This document shows positions 1 through 55,813 of a stretch of DNA of 57,498 nt, in pieces (the first letter of the stretch is position 1; every line of letters begins with the position of its first letter). The notes below the pieces were generated by a model, which was given only the letters and a program-made list of their open reading frames with translations, searched no databases and had not been told where the DNA came from. Source of the stretch: Mortierella sp. BCC40632 (lineage: Eukaryota > Mortierellomycota > Mortierellomycetes > Mortierellales > Mortierellaceae); the NCBI GenBank assembly GCA_011634665.1, contig WAEK01000040.1, positions 1-57,498 of the forward strand, read 5' to 3'. A program made the position numbers and the translations under genes.

Positions 1-170
1 TTATGTTTGATAACTTTTATTTATTAAATATTTAAATAAGATTTTAAAAAATCATTTTAAAAAGAAGAACTCGAACAAATATCTGAGTTTAATTCTTAGA
101 AAAATGATTCTGGATAAATAGAATATGTAATAATTAAATCCCCGGCCGGCCCGGGGTAATAATTTATATG
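1..170 (-). promoter_or_regulatory. copy of the cox1 5' leader
   Basis: Read on the minus strand this matches the 230 bases upstream of the true cox1 start (55.58-55.81 kb): a block with taattaattacataat-like sequence, a degenerate middle, then a block ending in tatttaataaataaa. The gene it would serve lies beyond the left edge. The segment also holds a GC cluster, cccggccggcccgggg, near 140. Similar leaders sit before endonuclease genes at 3.26, 9.35, 12.6 and 25.84 kb. Confidence 0.6.
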
Positions 171-502: not shown

Positions 503-1548
503 TTATTTAACTAATCTTTGAGGGATTATTAGTATGATCTTTTTAACAAGAATTCTAAATAAAAATAAATATTCTTTGCTAATTTGTTTGAATTTAAATC
601 TAACCACTGCCAAATAAAATCTTATAAATAATAATTTAAGAAAGAAGAAATGAGGATAGAATAAATTTTTAAAAATTTTATTAGTATTAATATTTCTAGA
701 AATTGTTGATTGATTACAATTAAAATGTTTAGCAGCCTCTGAATAGGAAGAAAACTTCAATAAGACATTAGAAAGATTATCTTTTTGAATACACAAATAC
801 TTTTTAGCTTTTTAATTTCACTCATTATTTTGAATGTCTCTAGAGAATGAGTTTTACCATACATTGGGCTATTTTCTCCTAATCTTGTAATCAATTTTTT
901 TTTTCTCCCTTTTAAAGTTAAACTTATATTTTTTTATGCTCTTCTGTGAAAAATTTTTTTTTTTTATTAATTTTTACTAAGAACTAATCGTGTTTTTTCT
1001 GTATGTGGTTACCATATCTAGGGATGATTTTTTTTCCGATTCTTCCAAACATATGATGATTTTCACCACTTATTTTTTTTTTTTCTAATGTTTCCCTCTT
1101 TATGTTTGTATCCTAAATTATTTCCGGCATAATTTAATAAATTGAATTTGGGTTTTATTAAATTAATATAATATTGTTCTTTAGAAAGTATTAATTTTTT
1201 TTTTATTTCATCTTTGATAGATTAGAAATATCAATATATTCAAGAATTGATAAACCAAATGCTGAATGACCATGTACCCAATTGCTCTATATATAAAAGT
1301 TTTCTTTTATTTAGACTATATGCTGAATAATAATTTATATAATCGTCTACTTTTATGGCCTACCAACATATTTTTTACCTGATTCGTGAGTCCATAGATA
1401 TATTCCAGTCTTATTTTTTTTTATTTTCCCTAAAAAATTGAAGCTTTTATCTGTCTCAGCATTAGAATAAATAACAATTGCAGAGATCAAAAATTATTTC
1501 TGCTTGTTCAGATCTTTCAAAATTAAATAAGATAATTGAATTTTTCAT
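503..1548 (-). pseudogene. GIY-YIG homing endonuclease, broken
   Basis: In pieces across frames one can read TGIYLWTHESGKKYVG (GIY-YIG core) near 1.39-1.35 kb, the family's EQYYINLIKPKFNLL segment near 1.16 kb, a GYKHKE start of the NUMOD3 region, and an IENR1-like DNA-binding end (SEAAKHFNCNQSTISRNI) near 0.72 kb. These enzymes nick DNA at an intron-less or HEG-less site so that the gene is copied in by repair. Many frame breaks fall in runs of A or T. The likely start at 1548 lies just behind a copy of the nad4L leader. Relic or badly read gene; the family assignment is firm, activity is doubtful. Confidence 0.75.
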
Positions 1549-1561
1549 GTTTATTTTATAA

Positions 1562-1655
1562 AATTACTATTTGTTCCCAATGTGATTATTAATCACTTAT
1601 CTTCGTCTAAAAAATCGATAATATACTTATTTATTTGACACACTTTATGGTTAGA
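1562..1655 (-). promoter_or_regulatory. copy of the nad4L 5' leader
   Basis: Shares long exact stretches with the sequence just upstream of nad4L (29.14-29.24 kb), including gttcccaatgtgattatt and acttatttatttgacacac. It stands directly before the GIY-YIG gene that starts at 1548, in the same orientation. A third copy lies at 49.07 kb. Confidence 0.75.
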
Positions 1656-1659
1656 ATTT

Positions 1660-2189: not shown

Positions 2190-3255
2190 CTGAAGAACCC
2201 ATGTTTGAACTAATTAAAAAATTTTCGGAACGAGATAAATAACATTTATCCTGAAATAATGAATTATTTTTATATATCTCATAATTGTAGAATGAGTAGA
2301 ATTAAAATATTCAGCAGCTTTTCTAGCTGAACTAAACTGTTGCTTTACCAATGAACCTTGACTATCATAAACATAAATAGTAGTTCCATTTTTGCAACAC
2401 TTAGTTTTGTTAGAGTCTCTGCGGAATGTCTTTTACCAAAGAAAGGATTAGTCTCACCAGACAAAGCCTCACTAATTTTTAGTTTGTGCTCTTCTGATTT
2501 AGCTACCCCCCTTTTTGGCTTTTCTCATTTTTATTAAAGATTCAGCCGAATGAGTTTTTACCATACATTGGATGATTTTCAGCCAATCTATTAAACATTG
2601 GATTATTCTCACCTTTTATTAATCTCACTCAGTAAAACTTTTGTTTCAGTACTATGAATTCTATTCTTCATAGCGGCAATAGTTTCCTCAGTGTGTTTAT
2701 AACCCAACGAAGAACCCGTTTTTAAGAATATTATAAGTATTAGGTTTATCTACTGAAAAAATTTGATCCAAATAAATTTGCTCACGTTCTAAAAATCAAC
2801 TTTCGTGCTTTTTTAGATAAACTCGAGATATCAATATATTCAAGTATAGCTAAGGAAAATGCAGAATAAGAGTGACTAAGTAGTGAATTATAGATATATA
2901 CGGTTTTAAATCCCTCTAAATGACTTTCATTTAAGTAGTTCTTAAATCGTTTTGATAAATCTACTGCAGAACCAATATAAATTTTTTTTGACTTAATGTG
3001 GGTCCAGAGGTAAATACCTGCTTTACTTTTATTGTCAGAAATTATTTTTGTCTTATTAGCCTTCACATCAGAATAAACAATAATAGGAACAAAAGAGATT
3101 AAAACAGCATCTTCTACCCCATAGAAAAGACTCGCCAGAAAAGTAAGGATTACTATAATATAAAATACAATAGTAATCATGCCTGAAAATAATACTAAAT
3201 TTAGATATAACATACCTATATCTTTAGCATTTGTTGAAAAAAGCCATCGTTTCAT
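2190..3255 (-). pseudogene. GIY-YIG endonuclease headed by cox1 codons
   Basis: The protein begins [20 protein letters not shown], nearly the start of Cox1 (compare 55814). It then passes through a hydrophobic stretch into a GIY-YIG domain (AGIYLWTHIKSKKIYIGSAVDLSKRF; read in two pieces AGIYLWTH and IYIGSAVDLSKRF), an ILEYIDISSLSK segment, NUMOD3 repeats (NPMFG-like) around 2.45-2.75 kb and an IENR1 end (SARKAAEYFNSTHSTIMRYI) at 2.27-2.34 kb. One frame reaches from 3255 to 2782 (157 residues); frame breaks follow. The cox1 leader lies upstream too, so both leader and first codons were copied. Inference: the gene borrows cox1 expression signals. Confidence 0.8.
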
Positions 3256-3480
3256 AATTTTTTTTATATATTTGACAATCCTTTTATTTATTAAATGTTT
3301 AAATTAGAATATTAGAATCATTTTTAAGAAATCTTATTCTCAGTATCAGAAAACCCCGGGCGGGCCGAGGGTTTATAAAAAAAAAAGACTTGAACAATCC
3401 GGATTAAATGATTTAATTAAAATGATAAAAATATAATAGATTATGTAATTAATTATAATTATTATTCTCAGAAAATGACG
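3256..3480 (-). promoter_or_regulatory. copy of the cox1 5' leader
   Basis: On the minus strand it runs from ttaattacataatc-like sequence to ttgtcaaatatataaa just before ATGAAACGATGGCTTTTTTC, matching the region before cox1 at 55.58-55.82 kb. A GC-rich insert (ccccgggcgggccgaggg, about 3353) interrupts it. Confidence 0.75.
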
Positions 3481-4632: not shown

Positions 4633-4828
4633 GATTTGAACTTTCTAGATCATGTCAATTAAGACATGATTTGTATTAAACTATTTTTTAATCAATTCCT
4701 GTTAATTTTTTAATAATCGGTCTTAGCCTGTTTATTTTTCATAAATATTTTTTATACCCCCTCCCGAGTATATTATTACTAATACTTGACGTAAGTAGTC
4801 ATCAAGTTCATAATTTTCTTTTTTTCAG

Positions 4829-4872: not shown

Positions 4873-4874
4873 CA

Positions 4875-6037: not shown

Positions 6038-6112
6038 TTATATTGAATAAATAAAAATGTCAAATAATTATAAATAAATAAAAATGTCAAATAATTATAA
6101 ATAAATAATATA
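6038..6112. repeat. tandem repeat, unit about 29 bases, two copies
   Basis: The unit aataaaaatgtcaaataatt plus ataaat occurs twice head to tail inside the linker of the nad2-headed endonuclease. On the minus strand it encodes FIYNYLTFL twice. Confidence 0.85.
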
Positions 6113-6377
6113 AGAAAAGCACATCTGTGAATTAAGATTGTTGATAAATAAAGAGAAGCTTGTGGTATCGTCATTACTAAAATTAAATTTTCTAATAGTA
6201 ACATATTTATATTAAAAATATTTTTATTTTTTTTTTTTTTTTTTATATTAATCTATTTCTAAAATACACCTACTTCCGAAAAAGCTGAATTTTTTTAACA
6301 ACTTTGAAAGTCGTATGCCGTCAAGAAAATACGGTTGAGTTATGAACAGTAACTAATAATTTTTTTCAAAATTAAAC

Positions 6378-6505
6378 TGGACTATATCATCATCCTATCT
6401 ATTCCATATAGGATATCAAGCGTGTAGTCTCTGAGGTTCCTGTTAGTATATAAAATATACATTTAAACCGGTTACCCGTTGATTATTCATTATATTATCC
6501 TTAAA
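6378..6505 (-). other. group I intron core (cob intron 5)
   Basis: On the minus strand the R element CTCAGAGACTACACGC (6422-6437) and the S element GATGATATAGTCC (6379-6391) are close to the textbook P7 strands and pair through GACTA/TAGTC. This follows cob exon 5 in transcription order, so it is the core of the intron after that exon. No cob exon is seen downstream of it. Confidence 0.8.
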
Positions 6506-6643
6506 ATTTTACCGAATGTTTAAGATATAGGTACTTTTATATTTACCAAATATTTAACATTTTGGTATTTAAGGCTTTTTAGAAAATTCCAGCATATAGC
6601 TTGATGCTAATTATATTATTACCAATATAAAGGCCCCACACTT

Positions 6644-6820
6644 GAGCTATAAAATGCATTACTACTAAAGCTGCTAATATGAATGGTAATAAATAATGTA
6701 AACTAAAAGAATCTGTTTAAAGTAGGATTACCTACGCTGAAAACCTCCCCATAGAAATCCCCTACGAAATCATTACCAATCCACGGTATTGTTTGACATT
6801 AAGTTTGTAATTACAGTTGC
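6644..6820 (-). CDS. cob: cytochrome b, exon 5
   Basis: Encodes the stretch [36 protein letters not shown] and ILAALVVMHFIA. This is the part of cytochrome b around transmembrane helix IV, including the haem-ligand histidines of the HYLLPF and VVMHF segments. Cytochrome b is the membrane core of complex III and carries both quinone sites. The frame is disturbed near 6740-6790 by extra or missing bases in G and T runs (the usual EFIWGGFSVG is scrambled). The exon starts directly behind the group I core at 6.95-7.06 kb. The right splice edge is uncertain by a few bases. Confidence 0.85.
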
Positions 6821-8379: not shown

Positions 8380-9351
8380 AAGATGTAGATAAGATCCATT
8401 TGTTTTTAAATAATTTACCATTTTTTTGCATATCTTAAAATTGTATCCTTAGAAACATTAAATTCCTCAGCAGCTTTTCTAGCGGAAGAAAAAACTATTA
8501 ACTTAATGTTATCTTATCAGGAGAATATATATATATAGTAGTACCAAAATATTTCACTTTATTTTTGTTTTTTTAGTCTCAGGTAAAAATAATTTTACCC
8601 CTTATTAATATTACTCAGTAAAGTTTTTTTTAGTTTCAGCTGAATGACTTTTACCTTTATTAGGATGATTCTTACCTTTAAGGGCTTCACTAATTAAAGC
8701 TTTTTAGTCTTATCAGAATGTTTTTTTTACCCAAATTAGCAACTCTCATTTTCTCCTTAGTTTCAGTGGAATGGGTTTTACCAAAGAAAGGATGATTTTC
8801 TCCCTGACATAATTTCACTTTTTTTTTTTATAGTTTCTGCCCTTTCGGGGGGCGGAAAACCCCGGAGGGAGTTTCTGTAGAAACTGTTTTACCTAAATGA
8901 GTTTGACTAATTTTTATTAATGATTCTTCAGTATGTTTATAACCCAACGAAGAACCTGCTTTTTATTAAGTATATTATATTCAGGTCGTAATGAATCTAA
9001 GTGTTGTTCCTGTTCTAGAATTAAGTTTTTTTTTGCCTCATCCTTTGATAAATTCGAAATATCGAAATATTCAAGGATAAATAAGGAAAACGCTCCAAAT
9101 CCATGCTCTAAAAAGGGCATTACATATATACATAGTTTTATTACGCTTTTAAATAGTCTATATTATAATACTTTTAATAAACGATTTTTAAATCGATTGA
9201 AGAACCCACATATTTTTTTTTCAGATTTCAAATGTTCCCACAGGTAAATTCCTGTTTTACCTCTGTTATCTGATAAAATTTTGGATTTGTCAGTATCTAC
9301 ATTATTATATGTAATTACTGGTGTGAAAAATATTTTTTTGTTAATGTCCAT
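8380..9351 (-). pseudogene. GIY-YIG endonuclease behind a cox1 leader, broken
   Basis: From the start: MDINKKIFFTPVITYNNVDT, then KTGIYLWEHLKSEKK (GIY half), a damaged YIG half, FGAFSLFILEYFDISNLSKD, LEQEQHLDSLRPEYNIL, NUMOD3 repeats (about 8.93-8.60 kb) and an IENR1 end (SSARKAAEEFNVS) near 8.47 kb. Frame breaks are frequent. A GC double hairpin has entered the NUMOD3 region at 8831. Unlike the 12.6 kb relative it does not keep the cox1 codons, only the leader. Confidence 0.75.
8831..8882. repeat. GC-rich double hairpin, W-W'-W type
   Basis: AGTTTCTGCC + C/G block + GGCGGAAAAC (imperfect inverted word) + CCCCGGAGGG + AGTTTCTG. Inserted in an endonuclease relic. Confidence 0.75.
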
Positions 9352-9520: not shown

Positions 9521-10012
9521 AAATAAAAAAAATGGTATAATCTTTTTGATTATCTTATAATATTTTTACTCAGTACCTGTGGTTCAGGTAACCTTTTCAA
9601 AAAATAATCTAGTCGTCTAGTTAAGTCTAGTCTAGTGAAGGATAAAACTACAAAAGCAAAATTATAAGTATTTACTGTATAATACATACAAATATTTATT
9701 ATTAAATTATAAAATTGACTATTAAATAAATTCCCGGCCCGCGCCACTGCTGCGGGTCTGCCGGGCGTTATAGTACTACCAAAATTAATCTCCTGAAATA
9801 AAATAAAGAACAATATATCTTGTATTTAAAATATTGTTAAGTTAATCTCTCCAATATCCCTGTCAGGACATTCTATTCTACTGTAGAATTTTTTTGTGAA
9901 AATTACATAATACTCCGAATAGGACTATAATTAAATATAAATAAATTCAAATTGTTAATATTAACATTGATTTATTACTATTACCTTATTTAAGATAATA
10001 TTAAAGGTATTA
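9521..10012. other. spacer with a GC cluster
   Basis: No gene recognised. A GC-rich block cggcccgcgccactgctgcg sits at about 9734. Near 9850-9900 and again at 13.97 kb a phrase close to ccctgtcaggacattctatt/ccatatcagggaattctatc recurs, probably shared intron sequence. Confidence 0.5.
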
Positions 10013-10498
10013 TTATTTAGAAGGGTTATTAAATTTAACATACCACTGTTTCTTAAATAATTTGTTATTCTCTATAGCCTTATTAATAGTTCTAGTATCG
10101 CATTTAAAATATTTAGCCATTTCGTATAATCCTGGGAATGAGGTATAGATTGATGAATCTAAATTATAAAGAGTAACTGATTTTGATAATGTTACACTAA
10201 TTTTTTTTTTAGTTTCATTACTCATATTTAAAGCTCTTTCTCTCATTAAATATTTAGTATGATCTGAAAGAGGTTTATTTTTATTGATAAAAGCAACTTT
10301 ATTTCTTCGTTCATCAGAATAATTTTCTTTCATTTTTTGTTTTGTTTCTTCAGTATGTTTATAACCAAAAGAATTACCAAAGCGAGAGGCTACCCCTATT
10401 AGCCTAGTATCAACTATGCCTTTCATAGCAGAACCTTCTAATATAATTGAATATAATATTTTTATATAGATTAGATTGAAGATAGGGGGGGTGTCCAC
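10013..10498 (-). pseudogene. GIY-YIG endonuclease, C-terminal half only
   Basis: The open frame (161 residues) begins with unrelated codons, then FGNSFGYKHTEETKQKMKEN opens a NUMOD3-type region and YEMAKYFKCDTRTINKAI followed by LFKKQWYV forms the IENR1 helix-turn-helix end. No catalytic GIY-YIG part is present, so it cannot cut DNA by itself. It could be a truncated relic or a DNA-binding-only protein; the family is certain. Confidence 0.75.
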
Positions 10499-10521
10499 CT
10501 TAAGTAAAAGAAGACACGAAA

Positions 10522-11292
10522 TTAAGATAATCCTAATTTATAGCGCATGGAACATGGCATATGTAAAGCTACAATAGAAACTAATTTAGGCATTGATCTT
10601 GCTCTAATTCGTATTCTTGGTTTAACTTTTTTATGCATAGGAAGAGTACACTCTATATCATACTTAATAATTAATACATTAATCAATTTAACTACATCTG
10701 GTATAGAAAAAGAGTCCGTACATAAAATTACAGATTTTTGATGAAGAGTCCCTGCTATCAAATGAGCTAAAACTTCAGGAGTTATTAAATTATAAATTAT
10801 TTCAAAGTCAGGAATAATCTTTTAATTCCATTCACATAAAAATATATTATATAATTCAGTAAAACAAGGTAAAGCTCTAGTTTGCATTTGTAAACCATAA
10901 GATCTTACCCCGTCTTTAACAGAAGAAGTTAAATTAGGTAAAACTTTTATTATAATGAGATAATAAATTAGAAGTATACCAAAAATACTCAAAAAATTAG
11001 CAGGAAAAGTTTGTTTAAACCCTAATCTTGCATTTTTATTTCCTGCGCTAGAAAAAGATACCCAACCATCCGATAGAATTAGTCCTATTACAACACCTCT
11101 TATATGCGGGGGTAAAAAAATTTGATCACTTACAAATCTCGTGAATCTTGGATATCCAACATTAGATGAAAGATTAGATCCATAAGGAACAAGACTACAA
11201 GATTCCAATCTAGTTGCATAAATCTTGTTAGTTGAAAACATTCGAGATGATTGAAAAGACTCGAACTTTGTAATAATAAAATTTGTTAACAT
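10522..11292 (-). pseudogene. LAGLIDADG endonuclease, divergent copy
   Basis: N-terminal half 11292-10822 (FSSRMFSTNKI-like start, TRFVSDQIFLPP, motif 1 VVIGLILSDGW, RALPCFTELYNIF) and C-terminal half 10761-10522 (VILCTDSFSIPDVVKLINVL, RIRARSMPKLVSIV, MRYKLGL) are separated by a short broken stretch. The second motif (AYWAMDD in relatives) reads AHLIAGTLHQ, so its acidic residue is lost. Related to the LAGLIDADG genes at 44.5 and 22.8 kb but distinct. Likely inactive. Confidence 0.7.
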
Positions 11293-11639
11293 GCTAAATA
11301 ATAAAAAGTTTTACAAAAAAATGAGATTTAATCATTTATTTATTTCGGATATAGCCTGCTTCTATTTATTCCGGACATAGCCACTTTAATAATAAAAATA
11401 GATAATATTATCTCTCGTAGGAGTATAATAATTTTATCTATAAAATGTTTCAGGGTTACAAGATTCTAATAAAAATATTATATGATGGAGAATAAGTTTT
11501 AATCCACTTAGTCTCAAGATCCATAATGGGAGGCAGGGGGAGTTTAATGCTTTAAGCAAAAAATAATATATGTTTATACTCCCTATCTATAAAATTTTTG
11601 CTTTTGTAAAATGTCTAAGAAGAGACAGAACTATCTCTT
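11293..11639. other. spacer, no gene seen
   Basis: AT-rich. It includes the imperfect tandem word tcggatatagcctgcttcta / tccggacatagccact (11.34-11.39 kb), which also occurs near 47.56-47.60 kb. Confidence 0.5.
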
Positions 11640-12596
11640 TTAGATGTAGATAAGATCCATTTGTTTCTAAATAATTTTTCACTTGAGGCATATCTAAGAA
11701 TTGTTTTATAAGAACAATTAAGAGATTCAGCCGCTTTTCTAGCAGAATAAAAACTATCAATTAATGTTAACCCATCACTTGAATATACAAAAAAATAGGA
11801 TATCCTAAAAGCAACCCCTATTTTTTATTTTTATTCTAGCCTCAGCTGAATGAGTCTTACCAAAATTTGGATTCTTTTTTCACCTTTTATTTGCAATTTT
11901 CATCGCATCTTTTGTGTTCCTTAGATTTTTGCTACTCCTTTCATTTTTTACTAATTGCTTTTTAGTTTCTAATAAATGAGTATAACCTAGCGTACTACCT
12001 GCTGTTAAACTAATATTAAACTGAGGCAAAAGAGTATCAAGATAATATTGTTCCCGCTCCAGAATTAATTTTCGTGCTTCTTCTTTTGATAAATTCAATA
12101 TATTTATTGTCTCAAGAATAGTAATAGAAAATTGCCCATAGCCATAAATAGAAAGTGCATTACAAATGAACATAGTTTTGTTTCGTTGTAAATGAGATTT
12201 AGAATAATATTGAGAAAATCGTTTTGATAAATTAAAAGATGAGCCAATATAAATTCTACCCGTTGATTCATGGGTCCATTTATAAATTCCTGCGAGAGAA
12301 TTATTATCATTTAAAATTTTAGTTTTATCAGTGTCTGCATTAGGATAAAATTTGACTGGAAGACATACAGCATATCTAAAGTCTACCATAGAAATATAAT
12401 TATTAATATTATAATCACTACAGGTCGAAATAGATAATAAAGAATCATAGAACCAAAATAAAGAGGATAAGAAAGAAGCAAATTCTAATGAATTAAACAT
12501 TAAAAATCCAGTTCCAAATATAACCAAAAATAATGCAAAAATTAAATATAATATACCTATATTTTTAGCATTTGTTGAAAAAAGCCATCGTTTCAT
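11640..12596 (-). CDS. GIY-YIG endonuclease headed by cox1 codons
   Basis: Best example of the cox1-headed type. Residues 1-25 copy Cox1 (MKRWLFSTNAKNIGILYLIF). A hydrophobic linker follows to about residue 90, then NADTDKTKIL, the catalytic domain LAGIYKWTHESTGRIYIGSS with the conserved Arg in LSKRFSQYY, GYGQFSITILETINIL, EREQYYLDTLLPQFNI and a GYTHLLETKKQ start of NUMOD3 (238 residues, 11880-12596). NUMOD3 and IENR1 remains (SARKAAESLNCSYKTILRYA) run on to about 11.64 kb in other frames. It lies inside the long cob intron 3 with the full cox1 leader upstream. Inference: translated independently of cob through cox1 signals. Confidence 0.85.
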
Positions 12597-12775
12597 AATT
12601 TTTTTATATGTTTGACAATCCTTTATTTATTAAATATTTAAATTAGATTTAAAAGGATCATTTAGTTTATAATTTAAAACTTGAGACTTGAGCCATTTTG
12701 TTTAAATTAAATTATAAAAATATTCCTAATAAAAATTGATTATGTAATTAATTATTATTATATTTAAGAAAAAAA
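12597..12775 (-). promoter_or_regulatory. copy of the cox1 5' leader
   Basis: Minus strand: taattaattacataatcaat, aaatgatcctttt, ttaaatatttaataaataaa, ggattgtcaaacatat, then ATGAAACGATGG. Nearly identical to 55.58-55.82 kb, making it the best preserved copy. Confidence 0.9.
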
Positions 12776-12829
12776 ACGGTAGAATTTTTTTTTTTTATTA
12801 TATTTAGTGATAATGGAAAGAGATTTTCC

Positions 12830-13488
12830 TTTTATGAGCTTCACTCATTTTTTTTAGTTTCCTCCCCAGGGGGGAAACCCCCGGGGGAGTTTCCTCTGTT
12901 CTAGGTTTTTTTATTCTTTTTTTTAGACTCCTCAGTATGTTTAAATCCAAAGATGTTTCCGGCCTCAAGTAAAATATTAAATGAAGGGTTAAATTTTTTA
13001 AGATACTTAGTTTCTAAACTCATAAGTTCTTTTTTTTTTTTTTAGTAACTTCTTCAGGAAAAAATTCTAAGATTACAAAAAAGCAAAAATTTTCAATACC
13101 ATATTTATTTACAGAATTAAAAAACGTATTTACTGCCAATTCCTTTTAATTAAATGTTTATAAAATCTACTATAAAACTTATTTGTAATTGCACTACCTA
13201 TATAAAAATCACCTGTTTTAATATTAAAAAAATACCATAAATACTTTTTTTTTTTTTTTTTTTTTGTTTCATTTTTATGTTTTTTTTTTTTTCATTTTTA
13301 TAAAGAGATTCATAAATTAATTCAGGTTTAATATTATAATGATTTAACCAATAACTTAATTTATTATCTTCTTTATTTGAAGAATTATTTTGAGAACTAA
13401 TAGGAACAATAGTTGATACTAAAAAACTAGTCTGTTGAAAAGGTTCACTTTGAATACTTATATTTAACCATTTTAGGCTAGTTTCCAA
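12830..13488 (-). pseudogene. GIY-YIG endonuclease in frame with cob exon 3
   Basis: The frame of cob exon 3 runs on into LETSLKWLNISIQ, a lysine-rich stretch inside long T runs, then YGIFFNIKTGDFYIGSAITN (GIY-YIG form with YGI) and FYSRFYKHLIKRNW (13.24-13.14 kb). FGINKYGIENFCFFVILEFF-like sequence, LMSLETKYLKKFNPSFNI and NIFGFKHTEESKK follow. A GC double hairpin at 12856 cuts the NUMOD3 region. Typical intron-encoded gene started by its upstream exon; several homopolymer frame breaks. Confidence 0.65.
12856..12902. repeat. GC-rich double hairpin, W-W'-W type
   Basis: AGTTTCCTC + CCCAGGGG + GGAAAC + CCCCCGGGGG + AGTTTCCTC: the word GTTTCC appears direct, inverted, direct. Confidence 0.85.
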
Positions 13489-13569
13489 ACCTAAGAATCC
13501 TGTAATAATTAAAAGTAAGAATATTATTACACCAATTGACCATAACATTATTCTAGGTGCTTTGTAAGA
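13489..13569 (-). CDS. cob: cytochrome b, exon 3
   Basis: Exactly 81 bases, 27 codons: SYKAPRIMLWSIGVIIFLLL then IITGFLG. This is cytochrome b transmembrane helix III, directly following exon 2 (..MAKGLYYG). No frame error. The exon is preceded by a group I core (13.6-13.76 kb) and continues in frame into the intron 3 endonuclease. A damaged second copy of this exon lies at 16160-16215 right behind exon 2. Confidence 0.9.
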
Positions 13570-13614
13570 CAATTATATTATCGATAAAGTGTTTAGTTTT
13601 ATCTTCCAATAGTT

Positions 13615-13765
13615 ACCTATTGGTTTAGACTATGTTATCAACCAAATTACTTAATGTAAATGGTTGTAGGGCACTCGTGTCCGGATTATTGCTAGTGTAG
13701 CTCACCAATTAGTCGTTGAACGTTCGTATACCTATAAAACACTGATATACGCTTCGCTGCAAATT
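13615..13765 (-). other. group I intron core (cob intron 2)
   Basis: Minus strand: GCAGCGAAGC (P/Q region), R GTTCAACGACTAATTGG, S AACATAGTCTAAAC; P7 pairs GACTA with TAGTC. Directly upstream of exon 3. Confidence 0.85.
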
Positions 13766-14141
13766 GTCCATAACTATAATTTATGGATGTCTTTGCAATT
13801 CACCCTATTCTCATTAAAATATTACTATTTTAAGCGGCTAATTTTAGTATAGAATAAAATATACTATTTTAAAACTCAATTGTGTTAATCTGTTCACAAA
13901 TAATATTATGTATTAAAAAAATTACAATATCTTTAAGAATTAATTGTAGTTCTCTGTACTTTTTAAATCCCATATCAGGGAATTCTATCCTATTAAAAAT
14001 TGCTTTTTGTGAATATAAATTTAGATAGACTATGATAAAAAAATGTTTTTAAAATGATGGGGTGTTATTAATTGTTTAAAAAAAAATTATAACTATAGTA
14101 GTATAATAAATTTAATCAGTAATATTTATATAAATTATAGA

Positions 14142-16959: not shown

Positions 16960-17954
16960 TTATTTTTCCGATGTTGATAAAATCCATTGGTCTCTAAATA
17001 ATTTATTCTTATCTGTATGTCTATAAATTGTCATATAGCTACACTTAAAAATATTTAGCTGTTTTTTTTACTTGAACAAAAACTATTTACTAGTGTACCC
17101 CTGTCTATCATAAACATAAATAGTGGTTTTTTTTTTTAGCTGCACTCATCTTTGCTTTTAGTTTCAGCAGAATGAGTTTTACCCTTATGAGCGGAACTCA
17201 TTTTAGCTAAAGTCTCAGCTGAATGACTCTTACCAAACATAGGGTTATTTTCACCAGACAGAGCTTCACGGATTAATTCTAAAGTTCCTGCTGAAAGAGT
17301 TTTACCAAATAAAGGATGATTTTCACCTGAAAATTTAGCAAGTGATTCAGGTGAATGTTTGTAACCAAGTGATGATCCAGCAGTAGGATTTATATTAAAT
17401 ATATTCTCTTTATTTATTGAAAAGATTATATCTAGATAAAACTGCTCTTTGTCTAATACCATATCACGAGCCTCTTCTAAAGAGAAACCTTTAATATCTA
17501 TATATTCAATAATGTGTAAAGAAAAAGCGGAATGAGTGTGATGAAGAAGTGCTCTACAAATATATGTATCGTCTCTTTTTAATGCTAAAGGAGAAAAATA
17601 TCTATAAAATCGCTTAGACAAATTTATTGCTGAGCCAATATAAATTTTACCAGATATAGTGTTAACCCACATATAAATTCCAGCTTTATTTTTATTTTCA
17701 TTTAATATCTGAGGTTTAGATGTTCGAGCATTTGGATATATCATTACAGGTACAATACATGATAAATTAAAGAAAGAATCAGAGAAAAATTCAAATATTG
17801 AGAGATTAGTCAATGAAAATAACAATACGGAGAAATATAAAATACCCTCAAATTGCGAAAAATGTAAAAATAGAGATTTAATATTTAATTGATTAGAAAG
17901 GTTTTTGAATTGATAGTTTCTTTCGAAACCCATTAGAGTATACCTTAAATGCAT
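16960..17954 (-). CDS. GIY-YIG endonuclease of cob intron 1
   Basis: Open frame 17954-17136, 272 residues. The N-terminus (MHLRYTLMGFERNYQFKNLS) is the start of a known group I intron ORF lineage and recurs in nad5 intron 2 (24270). It then joins a hydrophobic linker, NARTSKPQIL, KAGIYMWVNTISGKIYIGSA, LSKRFYRYF, HIIEYIDIKGFS, LDKEQFYLDIIF and four NUMOD3 repeats (NHPLFGK, NNPMFGK types). IENR1 remains extend to about 16.96 kb. A GIY-YIG gene has therefore replaced the LAGLIDADG part of the old intron ORF after its shared head. Catalytic core intact. Confidence 0.85.
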
Positions 17955-17984
17955 AAATAAAATATATTATGCATCTACTACCGT

Positions 17985-18227
17985 CTACTGTTGTTGCTTT
18001 TTTACAATGTTTACACTATTAAATGTAAATACACTTAACGGCGTAAACGCTGATTTAGATCCGCGATTGCCCATTTTTCTTTTGTCTATCTTATGACTTG
18101 TTACCGTACATGGGTCATTACTCCATCCACCTACGGACTTGCGGCCGAGGCTTGGTATCATAAGTTTTAGGGTGTCCCCGGAATTTGGCAGTATGAACCC
18201 AATAAATGTTTTCCCAAAACATTTGGC
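17985..18227 (-). other. 5' part of cob intron 1 (group I family shared with nad5 intron 2)
   Basis: Translated through, it reads GWSNDPCTVTSHKIDKRKMG and NRGSKSAFTPL. These strings arise from the structured 5' half of the intron and occur again at 24.34-24.52 kb in nad5. The intron begins after a CCT codon in both genes (..DSP and ..ADP). Confidence 0.8.
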
Positions 18228-18320
18228 AGGTGAATCAATTAAATAACTATTAACTATACTTAAAAATGGATGAGTTTTTAAAAGTTTCAAAATATTTTTA
18301 TATTTTTTTATATTCCTCAA
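18228..18320 (-). CDS. cob: cytochrome b, exon 1
   Basis: 93 bases: start at 18320, then LKLLKTHPFLSIVNSYLIDSP, the usual cytochrome b N-terminus (LKSHPLLKLVNSYLIDSP in relatives). The ten or so residues before it are lysine/asparagine rich and longer than usual; only this ATG is in frame. Upstream leader to 18.75 kb, partly copied at 33.97-34.36 kb. Confidence 0.85.
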
Positions 18321-18544
18321 TCTTCCATCACTATAAAATCAAAATTAATAATGCTTTATTAAGACAAAATGAAAAAGGTATATTCCTTTACAGAAATATA
18401 ATATTTTTATTATTTACATCTATCTTTTTATTAGGCACTAAAGAATTTCTTTTTCCTAGAAGAAAGAAAACTTTTTAAATAAAAATTCATGAAAAATAAT
18501 AAAATAAATTAGTTTTTAATTTAGAGTTATTTTTTAGCTTCCTC

Positions 18545-18749
18545 ACATATAATATTAATATTATGGGTTTAAATTTTAACTAAATAAGCACTTTAATTTA
18601 TTATAAAAAATAATTAAGTATTTTTATTGGTTTAAATAAAAAAATAACGAAATATTCAACTTAATTAAAAAAAATTAAAGAATTCAATAATATACAGATC
18701 TGTATACTATATTAAATAATATTACCTTAATATAAAGGTAGAAATTTGT
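18545..18749 (-). repeat. cob upstream region, inverted copy at 33.97-34.17 kb
   Basis: Minus strand from tRNA-Met toward cob: acctttatattaaggta, atacagatctgtatatt, aattaagttgaatatt, aagtgcttatttagtta. The same run, in the same order, is on the plus strand from 33974 to 34170, behind a damaged tRNA copy. Confidence 0.9.
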
Positions 18750-18820
18750 TAAGACAAGGAAGAGTCGAACTTCCATCAGTTCCGTTATGAGCAGAAAGCT
18801 TTACGTTAAGCTATTGTCTT
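18750..18820 (-). tRNA. trnM: tRNA-Met (CAT)
   Basis: 71 bases. Acceptor AAGACAA/TTGTCTT, D-arm TAGCTTAACGTAAAGCTA-like, anticodon stem TTCTG/CGGAA with loop CTCATAA (CAT), T-arm GGAAGTTCGACTCTTCC, discriminator A. All arms fold. It precedes the cob leader. Confidence 0.9.
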
Positions 18821-18945
18821 ATTAATATAATTTTAATTAAATAACCCGTTAAATAATCACTCTATATTTATTTTAGTATGCTCGGGGGGCCAACGGGGAG
18901 TTTGTTTTGGTTTGGGCGGGAGAAGAATCGAACTTATTTAAAAAC

Positions 18946-23525: not shown

Positions 23526-23624
23526 ATTAGACTTGAACTTTTGATGACGTGTTAATTAAAGCTCGACTTGAATTAAACTATCTTTTAATCAATTTTGTTA
23601 TTTATAAACATTCTCATCAGGCCC

Positions 23625-25010: not shown

Positions 25011-25829
25011 CTATTCCTTAGTTATTAAAGATGCGGATAAAATCCACTGATCTTTAAATAACTTACCACTATTCAAATAATTTACAATTGTTACATGAGA
25101 ACATTCAAAGAACTTTCCTGCCTCTCTAGTTGAATAAAAACTATTTACTAGAGAACCTAGACTATCATAAACATATATAGTTGAACCTCTAGCAATTCTA
25201 ATTTTAGCTTTCGTTTCAGCAGTATGAGTTTTTCCTGTTTTAGCGATTCTCAATTTAGCAATTGTTTCCTCAGAATGAGTTTTACCAAACATTGGATTGT
25301 TTTCACCTTTCTTGGCAACACTCATTTTAACTTTAGTTTCTGCTAAAACAGTTTTACCAAAGTTTGGATGATTCTCACCTCTTATACCAAACATTGGATG
25401 ATTCTCCCCAGATTTAGCTTCACTCATTAAAGCAAGAGTTACTTCACTATGTTTATAACCTAGTAAAGAACCCGCAACTAGTAATATGTTAAATTTGGGT
25501 TTAAGCTCATTAAGATAGAATTGTTCTCGTGATAAAAGTTCTTTTGACTCACAATATTCAAAAACAATTAAATAAAAATCTTGTAAATTATATTTATTTA
25601 TTGCTCTTTGTAGTAAAATATTTGATTTTTTGCCCTTAATATGATTATTAAAGCGAGTGGCTAAATCAATTGAAGAACCTATATATAGTTTGTCATTAGT
25701 TTTACAAATAAACCCGTAAACACCTGGTTTATTTTTCAATTCTTTTTTAATAATATCCTGAATTTCTGCTAAATGTAAATTACCTATCAATTGCTCGATG
25801 GTAGAAAAAAAAGGTTTAAGTTGTGTCAT
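25011..25829 (-). CDS. GIY-YIG endonuclease, full length
   Basis: An unbroken frame of 272 residues: N-terminal cap (MTQLKPFFSTIEQLIGNLHL), catalytic domain PGVYGFICKTNDKLYIGSS with LATRFNNH (Arg), YLIVFEYCESKELLSREQFY, then LLGYKHSEVTLALMSEAKSG and five NUMOD3 repeats (NHPMFG, NHPNFGK, NNPMFGK), ending in an IENR1 domain REAGKFFECSHVTIVNYL and DQWILSAS. All parts of a working enzyme are there. It lies inside nad5 intron 1, behind a cox1-like leader, though it carries no cox1 codons. The catalytic sequence is GVY rather than GIY. Confidence 0.93.
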   Translation of the reverse strand: MTQLKPFFSTIEQLIGNLHLAEIQDIIKKELKNKPGVYGFICKTNDKLYIGSSIDLATRFNNHIKGKKSNILLQRAINKYNLQDFYLIVFEYCESKELLSREQFYLNELKPKFNILLVAGSLLGYKHSEVTLALMSEAKSGENHPMFGIRGENHPNFGKTVLAETKVKMSVAKKGENNPMFGKTHSEETIAKLRIAKTGKTHTAETKAKIRIARGSTIYVYDSLGSLVNSFYSTREAGKFFECSHVTIVNYLNSGKLFKDQWILSASLITKE

Positions 25830-25837
25830 TGTTTTTT

Positions 25838-25995
25838 TTTGTTTTAAAATCCTTTATTTATTAAATATTTTACTTAATTTTAAAGACCATTTAAAAAAAA
25901 GGAATGAAGAAAGATTTGAACTATGTTGTTCAAAATACCTTTATCTAAATGATTCCTAAAAAGATTGATTATGTAATTAATTGTTATTATTTAAA
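25838..25995 (-). promoter_or_regulatory. copy of the cox1 5' leader
   Basis: Minus strand: aataacaattaattacataa, aatcatttagataaagg, then aaatatttaataaataaagg close to the start codon at 25829. Weaker than the 12.6 kb copy but in the same order. Confidence 0.7.
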
Positions 25996-29132: not shown

Positions 29133-29245
29133 ATTTTTTTTTTATAATATTGTTATTTGTTCCCAATGTGATTATTAATCACCTATTATTGTTTAAAATA
29201 AAAAAATTAATAGTATACTTATTTATTTGACACACTTTTATGGTT
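29133..29245 (-). promoter_or_regulatory. nad4L 5' leader (original)
   Basis: Minus strand: gtgtgtcaaataaataagta, tactattaat, ggtgattaataatcaca, ttgggaacaaat, then the start. Copies precede endonuclease genes at 1.55 kb and 49.07 kb. Confidence 0.75.
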
Positions 29246-29594
29246 ATAACAAAATTAAATAAAAGACTTGAACAAATAACTATTTTTCAAGAGTAAAAGT
29301 CAAGAATATTAATTTTATTATTGTTTTATAAATAAAACATAAATAGCCTTATCGTTTAAGAAAGAGAGGGATGTTTATTTAATAAAAATACAAGACAGTA
29401 AAGTCGTATTTAATAACACAAGTATTCAGAAACAATATCTAACCATTATTAAGTAAATTAAAATTAATTAACTATTAATTATTATATACTTTATTCGTGT
29501 CAATATAATTAAAATAATAATATTATTGCAACTAAAATATTTAGTTGCATCTTATATCAAAGCATTTAAATAGATTTAATAAATGCATCAAAAA
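29246..29594. other. AT-rich spacer, no gene seen
   Basis: No coding or structured RNA recognised; short palindromic AT runs only. Confidence 0.5.
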
Positions 29595-30229: not shown

Positions 30230-31012
30230 AAATGGGGCCCAACGGGATTTATGTTATTATTAATATTTTTTATATTAGTAATGACAACATCATTAGCTTC
30301 TCTTTATTTATCAACAATCTCAATACATAGAATTGCTTTTTAATATTTCTATTTAGTACTTTATTATATGATATGTAATTATTAGTAGAAATATTAAGGG
30401 GGCCCAATACAGACGGGGTAATTTTAACTATTATTATATCTAAATTATGATACATTATTGTTATTTACCCCACCCTCTTCCTTCCAGAATAGTCTCCTAA
30501 GGGACCTGTTATAGTTTATTCTAATGCGGATTCTTATAAATCAATTTAGATGATAAAAAATTAAAAACAGAAGTCTATCAATAGACACATCAGAATCAGG
30601 CAAATATAAGTTAGTTCTTAGTGGATTAATCTAAGCTATTTAGATTTTATTACCCAATAAATCATTTAACTCGTTATATTCATATGCTTATTATGCTCCC
30701 AAGGATGCTCGCCCGCAGTTTATTTATAAACATTTCAAAAAGAAAGGGAATACCCCGGCGGGGTCCCGACGAGCTTTACTTAAATATGATTATTCAAATT
30801 TTAGTCTAACTATATTAGATCTAGTCAATATAATCAATTAATCGGATGCTGAATCACGTTAATTTATTCTAGAAGGAGAGCTATATTATATTGACTCTTG
30901 CGCCTGAATATATAAAAAATCGCAGATAGTTCCTTAGAACAAAAACATTCAAATGAATCATGTTGTCTAATGAGTGAAACTAAAAGAGGAAGTAATAATC
31001 CTTTTATGATAT
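30230..31012 (+). pseudogene. nad2-headed GIY-YIG relic
   Basis: After a GC box (GGGCCCAACGGG, 30236) the frame at about 30251 reads MLLLIFFILVMTTSLASLYL and STISIHRIAF, a copy of the nad2 start, then breaks. Endonuclease pieces follow: VIVYSNADSYKSI (30.51 kb), FSLTILDLVNIIN (30.80 kb), FILEGELYYIDS (30.87 kb) and EQKHSNESC-type NUMOD3 start (30.95 kb). The catalytic GIY-YIG block is lost; a scrap of GC element sits at 30694. Second nad2-headed copy in the window, on the opposite strand to the first. Confidence 0.75.
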
Positions 31013-33897: not shown

Positions 33898-33974
33898 AAG
33901 ACTTTATGGTCAAATGGTCTCTTTTGCTTAATGCTCAAAAGGATCCGTGGGAGTTCGATTCTTCCGTTGTCTTA
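33898..33974 (+). pseudogene. damaged tRNA-Met copy
   Basis: Acceptor AAGACTT with partner GTTGTCTT, T-arm GGGAGTTCGATTCTTCC; the anticodon arm has an over-long loop (CTTAATGCT between TTTTG and CAAAA). It is followed by the same downstream sequence as the real tRNA-Met at 18.75 kb, so it was copied with it. Confidence 0.75.
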
Positions 33975-34354
33975 ACTAGTTTTTACCTTTATATTAAGGT
34001 ATTGTTATTAATATAGTATACAGACCTGTATATTATTAAATTCTTTAATTTTGTTTTAATTAAGTTGAATATGTCGTAATTTTTTATTTTAATCAATAAG
34101 AATACTTAATTATTTTCATAATAAATTAAAGTGCTTATTTAGTTAAATATTAAACCCATTATATCCTATAAATGGGTGGCTAATAAATTGCCTTAAATTA
34201 ATAACTAATATTGCAAATTATATCTTTACCCATGGATTTTATTATTATTGTTAATGACATTCATGAATTTTTATAATTTGACATATACTAGAGTCATCTA
34301 GTATACCTAATCATTCATGATAACGGTTATATAAAAATTTATAATAAAACAGAA
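33974..34354 (+). promoter_or_regulatory. copy of the tRNA-Met to cob leader region
   Basis: Plus strand 33974-34170 matches the minus strand 18749-18545 over about 200 bases. The later part (ttcatgaattttta, 34.26 kb) resembles the cob-proximal leader. It leads into the GIY-YIG gene at 34355. Confidence 0.8.
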
Positions 34355-35239
34355 ATGAAATTTATACTTACTTATTATTTAAACTTACCTTCCTTGGAAA
34401 TCTTAGAATTTTCAAGTTTATTATGTACTTTACCTGTAATAATTTATTCAAATGCGGAAACCTCTAAAGCAAGTATTCTATCAGAGCATAGAGGTAAAGC
34501 AGGAATATACAAATGGACCTATTTAGAATCTTCGGGATTAAGCCTGGCGGCAGAATCTGAAAAAATATATATTGGTTCTTCCGTGGATCTATCTAGACGG
34601 TTGAAAGATTATTATTCTCCTTTAAAATTAAAAAAAGCAAATAATTATATTTGCAATGCTTTAATACGTCACGGTCATTCTGCATTTTCTTTATCGATTA
34701 TAGAATATATAGATATTTCTCAATTATCTAAGGATGAAGCAAGAAAATTAATTCTTGAAAGAGAACAACATTTTTTAGATAGTTTAGAGCCAAAATATAA
34801 TATTCAAAAAATTGCAGGTAATTCTTTAGGGCAAACACGTTCAGAGAAAACTAAAGCTTTAATGAAAAAAATCAAATCTGGTACATTCCATTCTGAAGAA
34901 ACTAAAGCAAAAATTAGCGAAGCCCTTAAAAGAAGAAATCATCCTTTATTTGGTCAACCTTTTTCAGCTGAAACTAAAGCAAAAATGAGTGTAGCAAAAA
35001 TAGGTCAAAATAATCCAAATTTTGGTAAAGTTCATTCAGCTGAGTCTAGACAAAAAATGGGTCTTGCTCGAGGAATTCCAATTTTTGTATATTCATTAGA
35101 TGGTACGCTTGAGAATAGTTTTCCTTCTGCTACTTTAGCTGGAAATTTCTTTAATGTTCATAATAAAACAATATTAAGATATGTTAAAAGTGGTAAGATA
35201 CTCAGAGAAAAATATATTTTATCTTTAATAAAAAAATAA
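34355..35239 (+). CDS. GIY-YIG endonuclease, full length
   Basis: 294 residues, unbroken: hydrophobic head, NAETSKASILSEHRGKAGIY and KIYIGSSVDLSRRLKDYY (catalytic Arg; an 11-residue insert SSGLSLAAESE lies between GIY and YIG), IIEYIDISQLSKDEARKLI, EREQHFLDSLEPKYNI, NSLGQTRSEKTKALM, NUMOD3 units (NHPLFGQ, NNPNFGK) and IENR1 (ATLAGNFFNVHNKTILRYV, REKYILS). Stands between a copied cob leader and the conserved tail hairpin. One of the two best candidates in the window for a working enzyme. Confidence 0.93.
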   Translation: MKFILTYYLNLPSLEILEFSSLLCTLPVIIYSNAETSKASILSEHRGKAGIYKWTYLESSGLSLAAESEKIYIGSSVDLSRRLKDYYSPLKLKKANNYICNALIRHGHSAFSLSIIEYIDISQLSKDEARKLILEREQHFLDSLEPKYNIQKIAGNSLGQTRSEKTKALMKKIKSGTFHSEETKAKISEALKRRNHPLFGQPFSAETKAKMSVAKIGQNNPNFGKVHSAESRQKMGLARGIPIFVYSLDGTLENSFPSATLAGNFFNVHNKTILRYVKSGKILREKYILSLIKK

Positions 35240-45155: not shown

Positions 45156-45235
45156 CTTGAACTTTCTAGATTATGTCAATTAAGACATGATTTGTATTAA
45201 ACTATCTTTTAATCAATTCTTGTTATTTATAATTT

Positions 45236-49069: not shown

Positions 49070-49115
49070 GATTAATAGTATACTTATTTATTTGACACAC
49101 TTTATGGTTATAATA
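49070..49115 (-). promoter_or_regulatory. copy of the nad4L 5' leader (short)
   Basis: Contains taatagtatacttatttatt, tgacacactttatggttata as in 29.19-29.24 kb. It is joined directly to a tRNA T-arm-like piece (ggttcgattcttctcccgcc) at 49045. Confidence 0.7.
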
Positions 49116-49294
49116 ATAATAAAGGGGGTAGTAGACTTGAGCAATTACTCTTCTTGAATCACAATTAAAAATTAAAGTCAAGCATATTATTATTATTATT
49201 GTTATTATATATGAAATATACTGTTATAATTTTAAAGTAGGTTTGCCGAGATTTTCACAAGAATATATTAAACCGGCTGCGCGTTCTTTTATCT

Positions 49295-49981: not shown

Positions 49982-51581
49982 ATGTTACTATTAGGAATTA
50001 TAACTCTAGTAATGACGATACCATTAGCTTTCTTTTATTTATCAACAATCTTAATTCACAGATTAGCTCTTTTAATATTACTATTCAGTGCTTTATTATC
50101 ATATAATACGTTATATGTAATACCATTATCAACTGGTATAGGAATATTAGGAGGGTTATTTCAACTATCATCTTTATCTCAAAGCCTAGAAATATTTATA
50201 TTAATTATAGGAAGTATAATTTTATTATTAGTACCTGAAGGGAAAGAAATTAATACAAAAATAGTTTTCTCGGGCCAAGGGTCCGAAGAAAATATTAAAG
50301 ATCCTATTAAAACAGCAACTTTATGGAATTATTGGGATAACTTATCATCTAATGTTAAAGAAGTTTTATCAATTACAAATAAAACTAATAATAATTTAGG
50401 ATTGAAAGATTATCCTTTAATTATTTTATTCACTACATTAGGGATGTCATCATTAATATCTAGTTCTGATTTAATTACTATGTTTTTAGCAATAGAATTA
50501 CAAAGTTTTTTGCTTTTATACATATTAGCTACTATGAATAGAAATTCAGAATCAGCAGTAGCAGCAGGATTAAAAATATTTTTACTTGGTGGTCTTTTTC
50601 TTCTTGTTTTATTTTATTAGGTTCTACATTAATATATTCTTATACAGGTTTAACTAATTTTGAATCATTAAACATCTTACAAAGTGTTATTGGTCAATCA
50701 TTTGAAGAAAATTCTTATAATTATTTAGCTATAGGTGCCTTAATCTTGACTATGGGATTCCTATTCAAAAATTAGTGCTGCCCCATTACACTCTTTGGGC
50801 TCCTGATGTTTACGACGGGGTTCCTACTATAGTTACAACTTGGTTAACTATAATGCCTAAATTGTCTATAATTGTCTTTTTTATGATGAATAAATTCCTT
50901 TTAAACTCTAATTTATTAATGATATCTGCTTTATTATCACTATTATTAGGTTCTATTACTGGATTAGCTCAATATAAAATAAAACGACTATTAGCTTATA
51001 GTACTATCTCGCATGTTGGATTCATCCTTTTAGCTTTAGGAAATGAAAGTGTTAATGGTTTAGAAAGTACGTTATTCTATATTACTCAATATACTATAAC
51101 TAGTTTAAATACTTTCTTGATATTAATATTATTAGGCTATACATTAGATAAAAATAATATTGTATCTATTTATTCACCTATTCAATATATTTCTCAACTT
51201 CGAGGACAATTCTACCATAATCCTACACTTAGTATTGCATTAGCGTTATCTTTATTTTCTATGGCTGGTATTCCACCGTTAGCAGGATTCTTTTCTAAAT
51301 ATTTTGTTATTAATTCAGCTTTAATGAACGGTAACTATTTCTTAAGTTTAGTTATAGTTATCTCTAGTGTAATTAGTGCTGTTTATTATCTTCAAATTAT
51401 TAAAACTTTATTCTTACCTGATAATAATAATATTTCTTCAATATCAGAAAATAATAATTTATCACCTATATTAGCTTATATTATAGCAATATTAACCTTA
51501 TTTATTACTTTCTTTATAATTTACCCTACACCAATATTAAATAGTATACACATTATAGCTACCTCTCAATATTATTTCTAA
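49982..51581 (+). CDS. nad2: NADH dehydrogenase subunit 2
   Basis: From MLLLGIITLVMTIPLAFFYL and STILIHRLALLILLFSALLS through the ND2 core (MSSLISSSDLITMFLAIELQ, SAVAAGLKIFLLGGL), then LIYSYTGLTNFESLN, HYTLWAPDVYDGVPTIVTTW, RLLAYSTISHVGFILLALGN and LFSMAGIPPLAGFFSKYFV. Frame slips occur in the T run near 50.59 kb, the A run near 50.77 kb and at 50.79 kb. Membrane-arm subunit of complex I. The stop TAA overlaps the nad3 start by one base, as in other filamentous ascomycetes. Confidence 0.94.
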
Positions 51582-55579: not shown

Positions 55580-55813
55580 AGATTATTAATAATTAATTAC
55601 ATAATCAATTTTTTATTAGGGTTATTTAGATTAAGGTTATTAAAGCTTATATAGTTCAAGTCTATTTTTTATTTGTTTAATTAGTTTATATAACAAAACT
55701 TATTAAAAAATATATAAGTAGTTAATGTATAATTTTTATCTTTTAAATGATCCTTTTTAAATCTAATTTAAATATTTAATAAATAAAGGATTGTCAAACA
55801 TATATAAAAAATT
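55580..55813 (+). promoter_or_regulatory. cox1 5' leader (original)
   Basis: ttaattacataatcaatttt .. aaatgatcctttttaaatct .. aatatttaataaataaagga .. ttgtcaaacatatataaaaa, then ATG. Copies at 0.0, 3.26, 9.35, 12.6 and 25.84 kb all stand before GIY-YIG genes (the first at the window edge). Confidence 0.85.

Follow-up and report, generated by a model that had tools for sequence, protein, structure and literature searches.

The 5' ends of five host genes recur in front of homing-endonuclease genes in the mitochondrial contigs of Mortierella sp. BCC40632. Across the assembly we identified at least 31 such copies (8 of cox1, 6 of nad2, 4 of nad4L, 3 of cob and 10 of atp9, with redundant contigs merged; as search counts these are lower bounds), and 30 of these are followed immediately by a homing-endonuclease gene (18 GIY-YIG and 12 LAGLIDADG). 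Judged from sequence comparison, it is probable that unrelated endonuclease families (GIY-YIG, LAGLIDADG_1 and LAGLIDADG_2) have repeatedly taken host 5' ends as portable 5' leaders. The preliminary description had proposed that GIY-YIG genes captured the leader of cox1; the capture of host leaders by endonuclease genes is clearly supported, whereas its restriction to cox1 and to GIY-YIG proved too narrow. At the level of structure the interpretation is strengthened, and we infer that the leader serves as a translation (or transcription) signal, a reading that appears well motivated.

Assembly and domain inventory

The window, that is, the whole stretch of 57,498 nucleotides that was analysed, is contig C40 of a 62-contig, 49.9 Mb assembly. 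Contigs C33, C36, C42, C46, C48 and C49 overlap collinearly with C40 or with each other, mostly at 94-98% identity and with many alignment gaps (C36, C40, C42 and C46 are mutually collinear at 94-98% identity), and were used as partly independent readings of the same structures. C36 and C40 differ by about one gap opening per 80 bases, and the mitogenome, split over C40 and these six contigs, needs polishing. The redundant contigs often differ by indels, so an isolated frame break is given little weight. The DNA read comprised C36 entire, C33:1-30000, small further pieces of C33 and parts of other mitochondrial contigs, and several endonuclease genes are frame-broken or degenerate in the contigs read.

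Above the Pfam cut-off, the GIY-YIG profile gave 83 matches in the assembly, redundant contigs included, one of which is in C9, outside the mitochondrial contig set. A first scan of 10 window proteins placed 6 above this cut-off; the other 4 were two frame-broken gene pieces, one Nad2-like N-terminal piece and one nad5 ORF. Five stretches counted in host nad5, nad2, rps3 and cob exon 2 contain 0 TGA and 12 TGG codons. A Cox1 scan of the prokaryote collection returned mostly bacterial cox1.

Copies of the cox1 leader

The start codon of cox1 is at 55814 in C40, where the frame is broken soon after the start by one extra T; this T is absent from C33, C36 and C49, in which the intact start reads MKRWLFSTNAKD. 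With window positions 55400-56100 as the query, blastn returned 12664-12478 (88%), 3329-3158 (85%), 69-2 (84%), 25896-25828 (81%) and 9429-9350 (79%), and the upstream half of the leader matched 12776-12718, 9530-9470, 25989-25903 and 3456-3379, all on the minus strand. The downstream half of the queried stretch was not found by blastn after the copies. The five copies that had been described in the window were all recovered in this way, and overlapping contigs have them at corresponding places. A 16-base core, AATTAATTACATAATC, has 5 window matches with at most 2 mismatches (cox1 and four copies), compared to 0.75 expected, and none of 100 shuffles reached 5 matches, so that the leader blocks align better than random AT-rich DNA would by chance. 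In the whole assembly, the cox1 leader has at least 47 matches including cox1 itself, all in seven contigs, all of them mitochondrial.

The fusions and the leader-only copies that had been distinguished were both confirmed: at 12.6 and 3.26 kb the Cox1 N-terminus opens an in-frame ORF with a Pfam GIY-YIG domain, and the copies before the genes at 9.35 and 25.83 kb carry no Cox1 codons (Table 1). Read in overlapping contigs, the left-edge copy is a third Cox1-GIY-YIG fusion (MVRWLYSTKTKDIETLYLILGLFS...). All five lie away from cox1, as proposed, with the 12.6, 9.35, 3.26 kb and left-edge copies between cob exons and the 25.83 kb copy between nad5 stretches. The 3.26 kb gene has internal frame breaks in C40, and its later part is open in C36. 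A single TGA, at codon 239, occurs in the 12.6 kb ORF; should TGA be read as a stop in this genome, the ORF may terminate upstream of NUMOD3. GC-rich, palindrome-like inserts occur within leaders and, in several GIY-YIG domains, at a comparable position (APLGGFTPPPG or similar); their places are ~3350-3372, 5.7-5.8 kb and 20.4 kb in the window and ~5.45-5.85 kb in C36.

Table 1. Host leaders, their copies, associated endonuclease genes and group I intron cores in the window.
Feature	Position	Strand	Remarks
cox1 5' leader, source of cox1-type copies	55585..55813	+	copies begin within ~55565-55589
cox1-leader copy	12597..12776	-	proximal block 70/70 vs cox1; distal 0.96 over 27 columns
GIY-YIG + NUMOD3 ORF, ~40 Cox1-derived codons at start, between cob exons	11805..12596	-	Pfam GIY-YIG E 3.9e-7
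cox1-leader copy	3256..3456	-	blastn and alignment
GIY-YIG ORF, ~33 Cox1-derived codons at start	2746..3255	-	GIY-YIG E 4.9e-7
cox1-leader copy without Cox1 codons	9350..9530	-	blastn and alignment
GIY-YIG gene behind the 9.35 kb leader	8629..9303	-	frame broken in C40
cox1-leader copy without Cox1 codons, within nad5	25828..25989	-	blastn and alignment
GIY-YIG + NUMOD3 + NUMOD1 ORF behind the 25.83 kb leader	25011..25829	-	ORF and Pfam
cox1-leader copy at left edge	2..69	-	its gene: C36 ~5704-4757
nad2 start and first codons, source of nad2-type copies	49982..50080	+	alignment
nad2 5'-end copy (some leader and ~32 codons), between cob exons	6106..6263	-	precedes GIY-YIG gene (domain 5303-5834)
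nad2 5'-end copy, from ATG	30251..30367	+	precedes degenerate GIY-YIG gene (30770-31002)
nad4L leader, source of nad4L-type copies	29133..29341	-	start codon 29132
nad4L-leader copy	1547..1656	-	precedes GIY-YIG gene (domain 799-1463)
nad4L-leader copy	49071..49220	-	precedes GIY-YIG gene (domain 48389-49006)
cob leader with tRNA-Met at 5' end, source of cob-type copies	18480..18830	-	
cob-leader copy	33926..34209	+	precedes intact GIY-YIG ORF
GIY-YIG + NUMOD3 ORF behind cob leader	34355..35239	+	ORF and Pfam
atp9-leader copy, between cob exons	4657..4704	-	precedes LAGLIDADG gene, frame broken in C40, named by eye
atp9-leader copy, within nad5	23544..23605	-	precedes LAGLIDADG_2 ORF
atp9-leader copy	45178..45230	-	precedes LAGLIDADG_2 ORF
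GIY-YIG ORF	17136..17966	-	upstream region and start match LAGLIDADG-like intron ORF at 24318-23893
Group I intron core, head of cob inter-exon region with five endonuclease genes	6357..6654	-	complete core match
Group I intron core, directly before cob exon	13606..13855	-	
Group I intron core, after cob exon 1	17914..18228	-	

Copies of other leaders, counts and controls

Recurrent leaders were sought in the 700 nt upstream of 29 of the 31 GIY-YIG clusters in the 88 kb that were read throughout (the two others are C36:39553, with the C-terminal part only, and C36:10506, with one weak match), and three were identified: those of cox1, nad2 and nad4L. Copies of these three number 15 in the 88 kb, of which 14 lie within 300 nt upstream of a GIY-YIG gene and one precedes a LAGLIDADG_2 ORF; at least 13 of 14 copies would stand before GIY-YIG genes by chance with p = 1.4 × 10−16. 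The atp9 leader was first met through a LAGLIDADG gene, and a search with it yielded at least 10 places besides atp9 itself, with the copy starting at query position 30-35 in 9 of 10; the shared boundary of the atp9 type lies at ~C33:45601. According to the alignment, the nad2 copies keep codons more than leader, and they thus fit a pure leader function less well; the nad2 copy at C33:48058 has no adjacent endonuclease, the next GIY-YIG being ~1.25 kb away. The cob gene itself may start at a TTG (~18250-18330, minus strand), which is aligned to the start ATG of the LAGLIDADG gene that carries a cob leader in L112.

Of the 30 endonuclease genes behind leaders, at least two are degenerate, those at window 30.77 kb and at C33:88.7 kb, and further ones have broken frames in the contig sequences used. 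All 10 open LAGLIDADG pieces scanned exceeded the Pfam cut-off (LAGLIDADG_1 in 3 and LAGLIDADG_2 in 7), the count of 12 LAGLIDADG genes including those at window 4.7 kb and C33:88.7 kb, which were named by eye from broken frames; GIY-YIG was recognized by Pfam in 9 of 10 further open pieces.

Internal segments of rns, nad5, nad2 and rps3, used as controls, had no extra copies, and neither had the 5' ends of nad5 and rps3 or the stretch before nad3. The stretch before rns gave five matches, located in LAGLIDADG sequence beside rns, and the internal cob exon 2 gave one 42-base match elsewhere. A query from the cob start (18250-18650) yielded no copies within the 88 kb; it was the leader further upstream that recovered those of cob. 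The total of 31 leaves out matches taken as repeats of one place across redundant contigs, two short fragments of cox1 exon (C33:11539-11572 and 11644-11697), a 62-nt nad2 leader fragment (C33:71601-71662) and two short partial cob matches (C33:78842-78912 and 40121-40187). C46:27516 and C42:38987 were counted as one place on the basis of identical sequence, and C33:103718 was merged with both as presumably the same place, because it lies at a similar distance from a group I intron match. Three metagenomic relatives (L001-L003) have endonuclease arrays as well; their upstream regions, compared only mutually, contain repeats that mostly resemble neighbouring endonuclease genes, in what is a weak test, the host leaders lying mostly off those pieces.

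Host codons and direction of transfer

After the start codon, the copies carry ~19-40 codons of Cox1 (blastn extent), ~30 of Nad2 (MLLLVILTLVMTIPLASLYLSTIS) or 13 of Atp9 (MLASAKIIGAGLA, followed by GIY-YIG) in frame, and the other copies consist of the leader only. Because the host codons of Cox1, Nad2 and Atp9 sit in frame after the start, the direction of transfer is from the host gene to the endonuclease. Pieces of two host genes also occur in combination: in L112, a cob leader ends at the ATG, the initial codons of Cox1 (MNRWLFSTN...) come next, and a LAGLIDADG_1 ORF follows these.

On the GIY-YIG tree, which is poorly resolved and leaves out 5 of 29 loci for low coverage, genes do not cluster by leader class (for cox1, 7 changes for 7 rows, compared to a shuffled mean of 6.3), and a tree of the leaders gave no resolution. 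A single origin of each leader class may be compatible with such poorly resolved trees.

Introns and endonuclease arrays

Mapping with yeast Cob located exons of cob at 16510-16220, 13569-13489 and 6789-6645, and the following exon at C36:4165. Whole-window Rfam scans missed group I introns that short segments or a targeted search found (Table 1), and no group I core was reported at E 0.5 in 7000-13500 or 1-6000. The cob inter-exon region that follows the core at 6357-6654 holds an array of a GIY-YIG gene with a nad2 leader, a LAGLIDADG gene with an atp9 leader, and three GIY-YIG genes with cox1, nad4L and cox1 leaders; the cox1 inter-exon region at C33:11463-20220 likewise holds GIY-YIG genes with cox1 and nad2 leaders, a LAGLIDADG gene with an atp9 leader and a GIY-YIG gene with a cox1 leader. 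Between 13489 and 6789 in cob, the first GIY-YIG gene is in frame with the exon, and the two later ones have cox1 leaders. Fragments of cox1 exon 1 (34 identical bases in one stretch) are present at C33:11539-11724, inside a later cox1 inter-exon region, where they adjoin a short group I intron match.

All 15 copies located between mapped exons (7 in cob, 2 in nad5 and 6 in cox1) are co-oriented with the host gene. Transcription would therefore already be supplied to these endonuclease genes, and what a gene in the middle of an array would lack is a translation start, which favours a translation signal as the function of the leader.

Conservation of the leaders

Among seven cox1-leader GIY-YIG genes (21 pairs), mean leader identity is 0.82 in the proximal and 0.87 in the distal block, whereas the linked GIY-YIG sequences are 0.61 identical in DNA and 0.41 in protein; in the 12.6 kb copy, 70 of 70 proximal leader bases match, compared to 100 of 126 coding bases. 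The alignment shows variable spacers between the cox1-leader blocks, and the LAGLIDADG_2 copy at C33:27.3 kb still has the spacer of cox1. This pattern is consistent with constraint acting on short blocks of the leader. Part of the conservation could stem from captures that were recent and repeated, or from short gene-conversion events involving the host leader, and the linked GIY-YIG genes may simply predate the leaders they carry. Differences between the three Cox1 fusions and cox1 are distributed over the codon positions as 6/9/11, 9/12/12 and 14/13/14, with no clear excess at third positions; because they are spread about evenly, the captured codons are not kept as Cox1 protein.

Pairing in the cox1 leader was considered as a 10-pair long-range stem and an alternative hairpin, each with ~91% of cells paired, and since covariation was no higher than in shuffles, we claim no structure for this leader. 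The T-loop-like motif GTTCAARTCTA occurs in the cox1, nad4L and LAGLIDADG leaders and their copies (55654 on the plus strand; 29263, 45152, 23528, 4631, 3385, 25911 and 49132 on the minus strand), with 12 window matches at no more than 1 mismatch compared to 3.4 expected, and may be a tRNA-like processing mark of leaders.

Interpretation and alternatives

Leader-dependent translation in fungal mitochondria uses nuclear translational activators. We propose that the 5' ends of cox1, nad2, nad4L, cob and atp9 were copied to endonuclease genes, and that a captured leader would recruit the host's leader-dependent translation, perhaps along with a 5' processing signal. The endonuclease would then be made as its own cistron in the middle of an intron, where exon fusion is impossible; host codons after the ATG would be carried at first and later erode, with the leader being kept. 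On a further step we are evenly divided, namely that the intron arrays would be sets of separate cistrons under interchangeable respiratory-gene leaders, with each endonuclease controlled by the nuclear translational activator of its donor.

An alternative that we consider unlikely is that endonuclease modules insert near host 5' ends and drag the displaced 5' end along, the leader having no selected function; this would mirror the elements of Allomyces and Glomus, in which host 3' ends are carried. Host 3'-end duplications do lie beside GIY-YIG genes in the window, with the nad5 C-terminus at 18947-19461 and 20808-21322 and the nad3 C-terminus at 51733-51951 and 54477-54695, and a GIY-YIG ORF stands directly upstream of cox1 (54660-55448). 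However, in leader-only copies the leader has outlasted the host codons, the linked coding DNA is less conserved than the leader blocks, the downstream half of the queried cox1 stretch does not follow the copies, and the length of the fusion varies between copies, all of which argue against passive carriage.

It is similarly improbable that the captured piece is mainly an RNA-processing or transcription element (a tRNA-like 5' processing site or a promoter) rather than a translation signal. The recurrence of GTTCAARTCTA in cox1, nad4L and LAGLIDADG leaders, the tRNA-Met that heads the cob leader and the nearly identical starts of the copies, within ~55565-55589 for cox1 and at one query position range in all but one atp9 copy, would all be accommodated by such an element; the co-orientation of the 15 inter-exon copies, to which transcription is already supplied, and the conservation of cox1 and nad4L copies up to the start codon region would not.

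A very unlikely origin is simple duplication of cox1 exon 1 together with the ORF of its intron. The cox1 gene does have a GIY-YIG gene in the same frame after exon 1 (~codon 71, with two intervening stops in C36), and GIY-YIG sequence directly follows Cox1 residue 71 in the metagenomic mitochondrial contigs L115 and L116, but in the captured copies the match to cox1 stops no later than ~codon 40, still within exon 1, so that the junctions already contradict this origin; moreover, on the tree the GIY-YIG gene of the cox1 intron is placed apart from the captured-leader genes (branch 100/97, the end branches being long), and four other leaders and the LAGLIDADG genes would be left unexplained. 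Least probable of all are assembly chimeras, a concern raised by the noisy assembly, its gappy redundant contigs and the extra T in cox1, which we set aside because as many as four overlapping contigs have the copies at matching places and most copies differ by 12-25% from the host sequence, and also differ from each other.

Relation to known systems

In the preliminary description, no described family was known to use this arrangement repeatedly. Precedents are in print, both for exon fusion and for GIY-YIG genes with an atp9 N-terminus, but leader capture from several genes is not among them in the portions of the articles that were available. Exon-fused intron ORFs ("core creep") gain host expression signals through in-frame fusion to host coding sequence, and both PMC10448965 and PMC7487136, in the portions available, give expression as the reason. 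A core-creep ORF, as characterized there, stays behind its own host exon, whereas here a leader and start are copied into introns of other genes and between genes: the leader-captured genes are not in frame with the upstream exon of their own host gene but have their own start and a leader from elsewhere. Exon-fused GIY-YIG genes exist separately, in cox1 and cob.

Mobile ORFs with host C-termini have been described for atp6 in Allomyces and for atp6, atp9, cox2 and nad3 in Glomus (PMC3630166, in the sections accessible). They share with the present genes the link between endonuclease elements and duplicated host gene ends, and the nad5 and nad3 duplications reported here seem to be of that type. 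In those elements, as far as the accessible sections go, the host 3' end is duplicated in place and completes the gene there, whereas in the leader-captured genes a host 5' leader and start codon precede the endonuclease, at a distance from the donor gene. The nad5 gene runs in frame into a GIY-YIG-type tail, in an Allomyces-like manner.

Introns with host N-terminal duplications are on record (PMC7315562, excerpted text). Published intron elements with duplicated parts of mitochondrial genes, which include extra truncated nad2 and nad3 copies in an intron, are modelled as host-gene fragment exchange; the word promoter occurs nowhere in that text, and leader capture is absent from the excerpted account. 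GIY-YIG genes duplicated with the atp9 N-terminus (PMC7487136) resemble the present case in placing GIY-YIG beside a host N-terminus, and atp9 is among the five donors here, but the text available treats that single donor as a duplication hotspot, with no leaders of several genes. In Phialocephala, an atp9 duplicate includes 124 bp upstream, and an inserted ORF (ORF_01) draws on the initial 14 bp of that copy (PMC3434094); this is a single case next to atp9, and ORF_01 is not called an endonuclease in the passages at hand. Partial gene duplications occur in other cases, too (PMC4019555 and PMC5626475, each in excerpt).

In plant cytoplasmic male sterility, orf79 has a cox1-like N-terminus. The chimeric mitochondrial ORFs of these plants (PMC2851602, in the part available) are comparable in that a new ORF has become linked to sequence from upstream of other mitochondrial genes or from their N-terminal part, but they are plant recombination products, not endonucleases. 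In the open-licence literature searched, most subscription journals lying outside it, and in the accessible portions of its articles, there was no report of leader capture from several host genes by different mitochondrial endonuclease families. Chimerism between endonucleases and host genes is thus known, and what appears from the present sequences to be new is its breadth across five donors and both kinds of endonuclease.

Exon fusion is the usual answer to the question of how an endonuclease, free-standing or nested in an intron, is translated in mitochondria, where mRNAs need gene-specific leader activators. The thirty natural joints between leaders and endonuclease genes, from five donors, constitute a comparative experiment on which leader bases matter, in which conserved cox1-leader blocks contrast with the variable spacers. 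If the proposed function of the leader is true, nuclear activators of respiratory genes unintentionally drive selfish elements, leader capture may explain the endonuclease arrays in long introns, and leader swapping might be a general route to selfish-gene expression in a compartment whose mRNAs depend on gene-specific activators.
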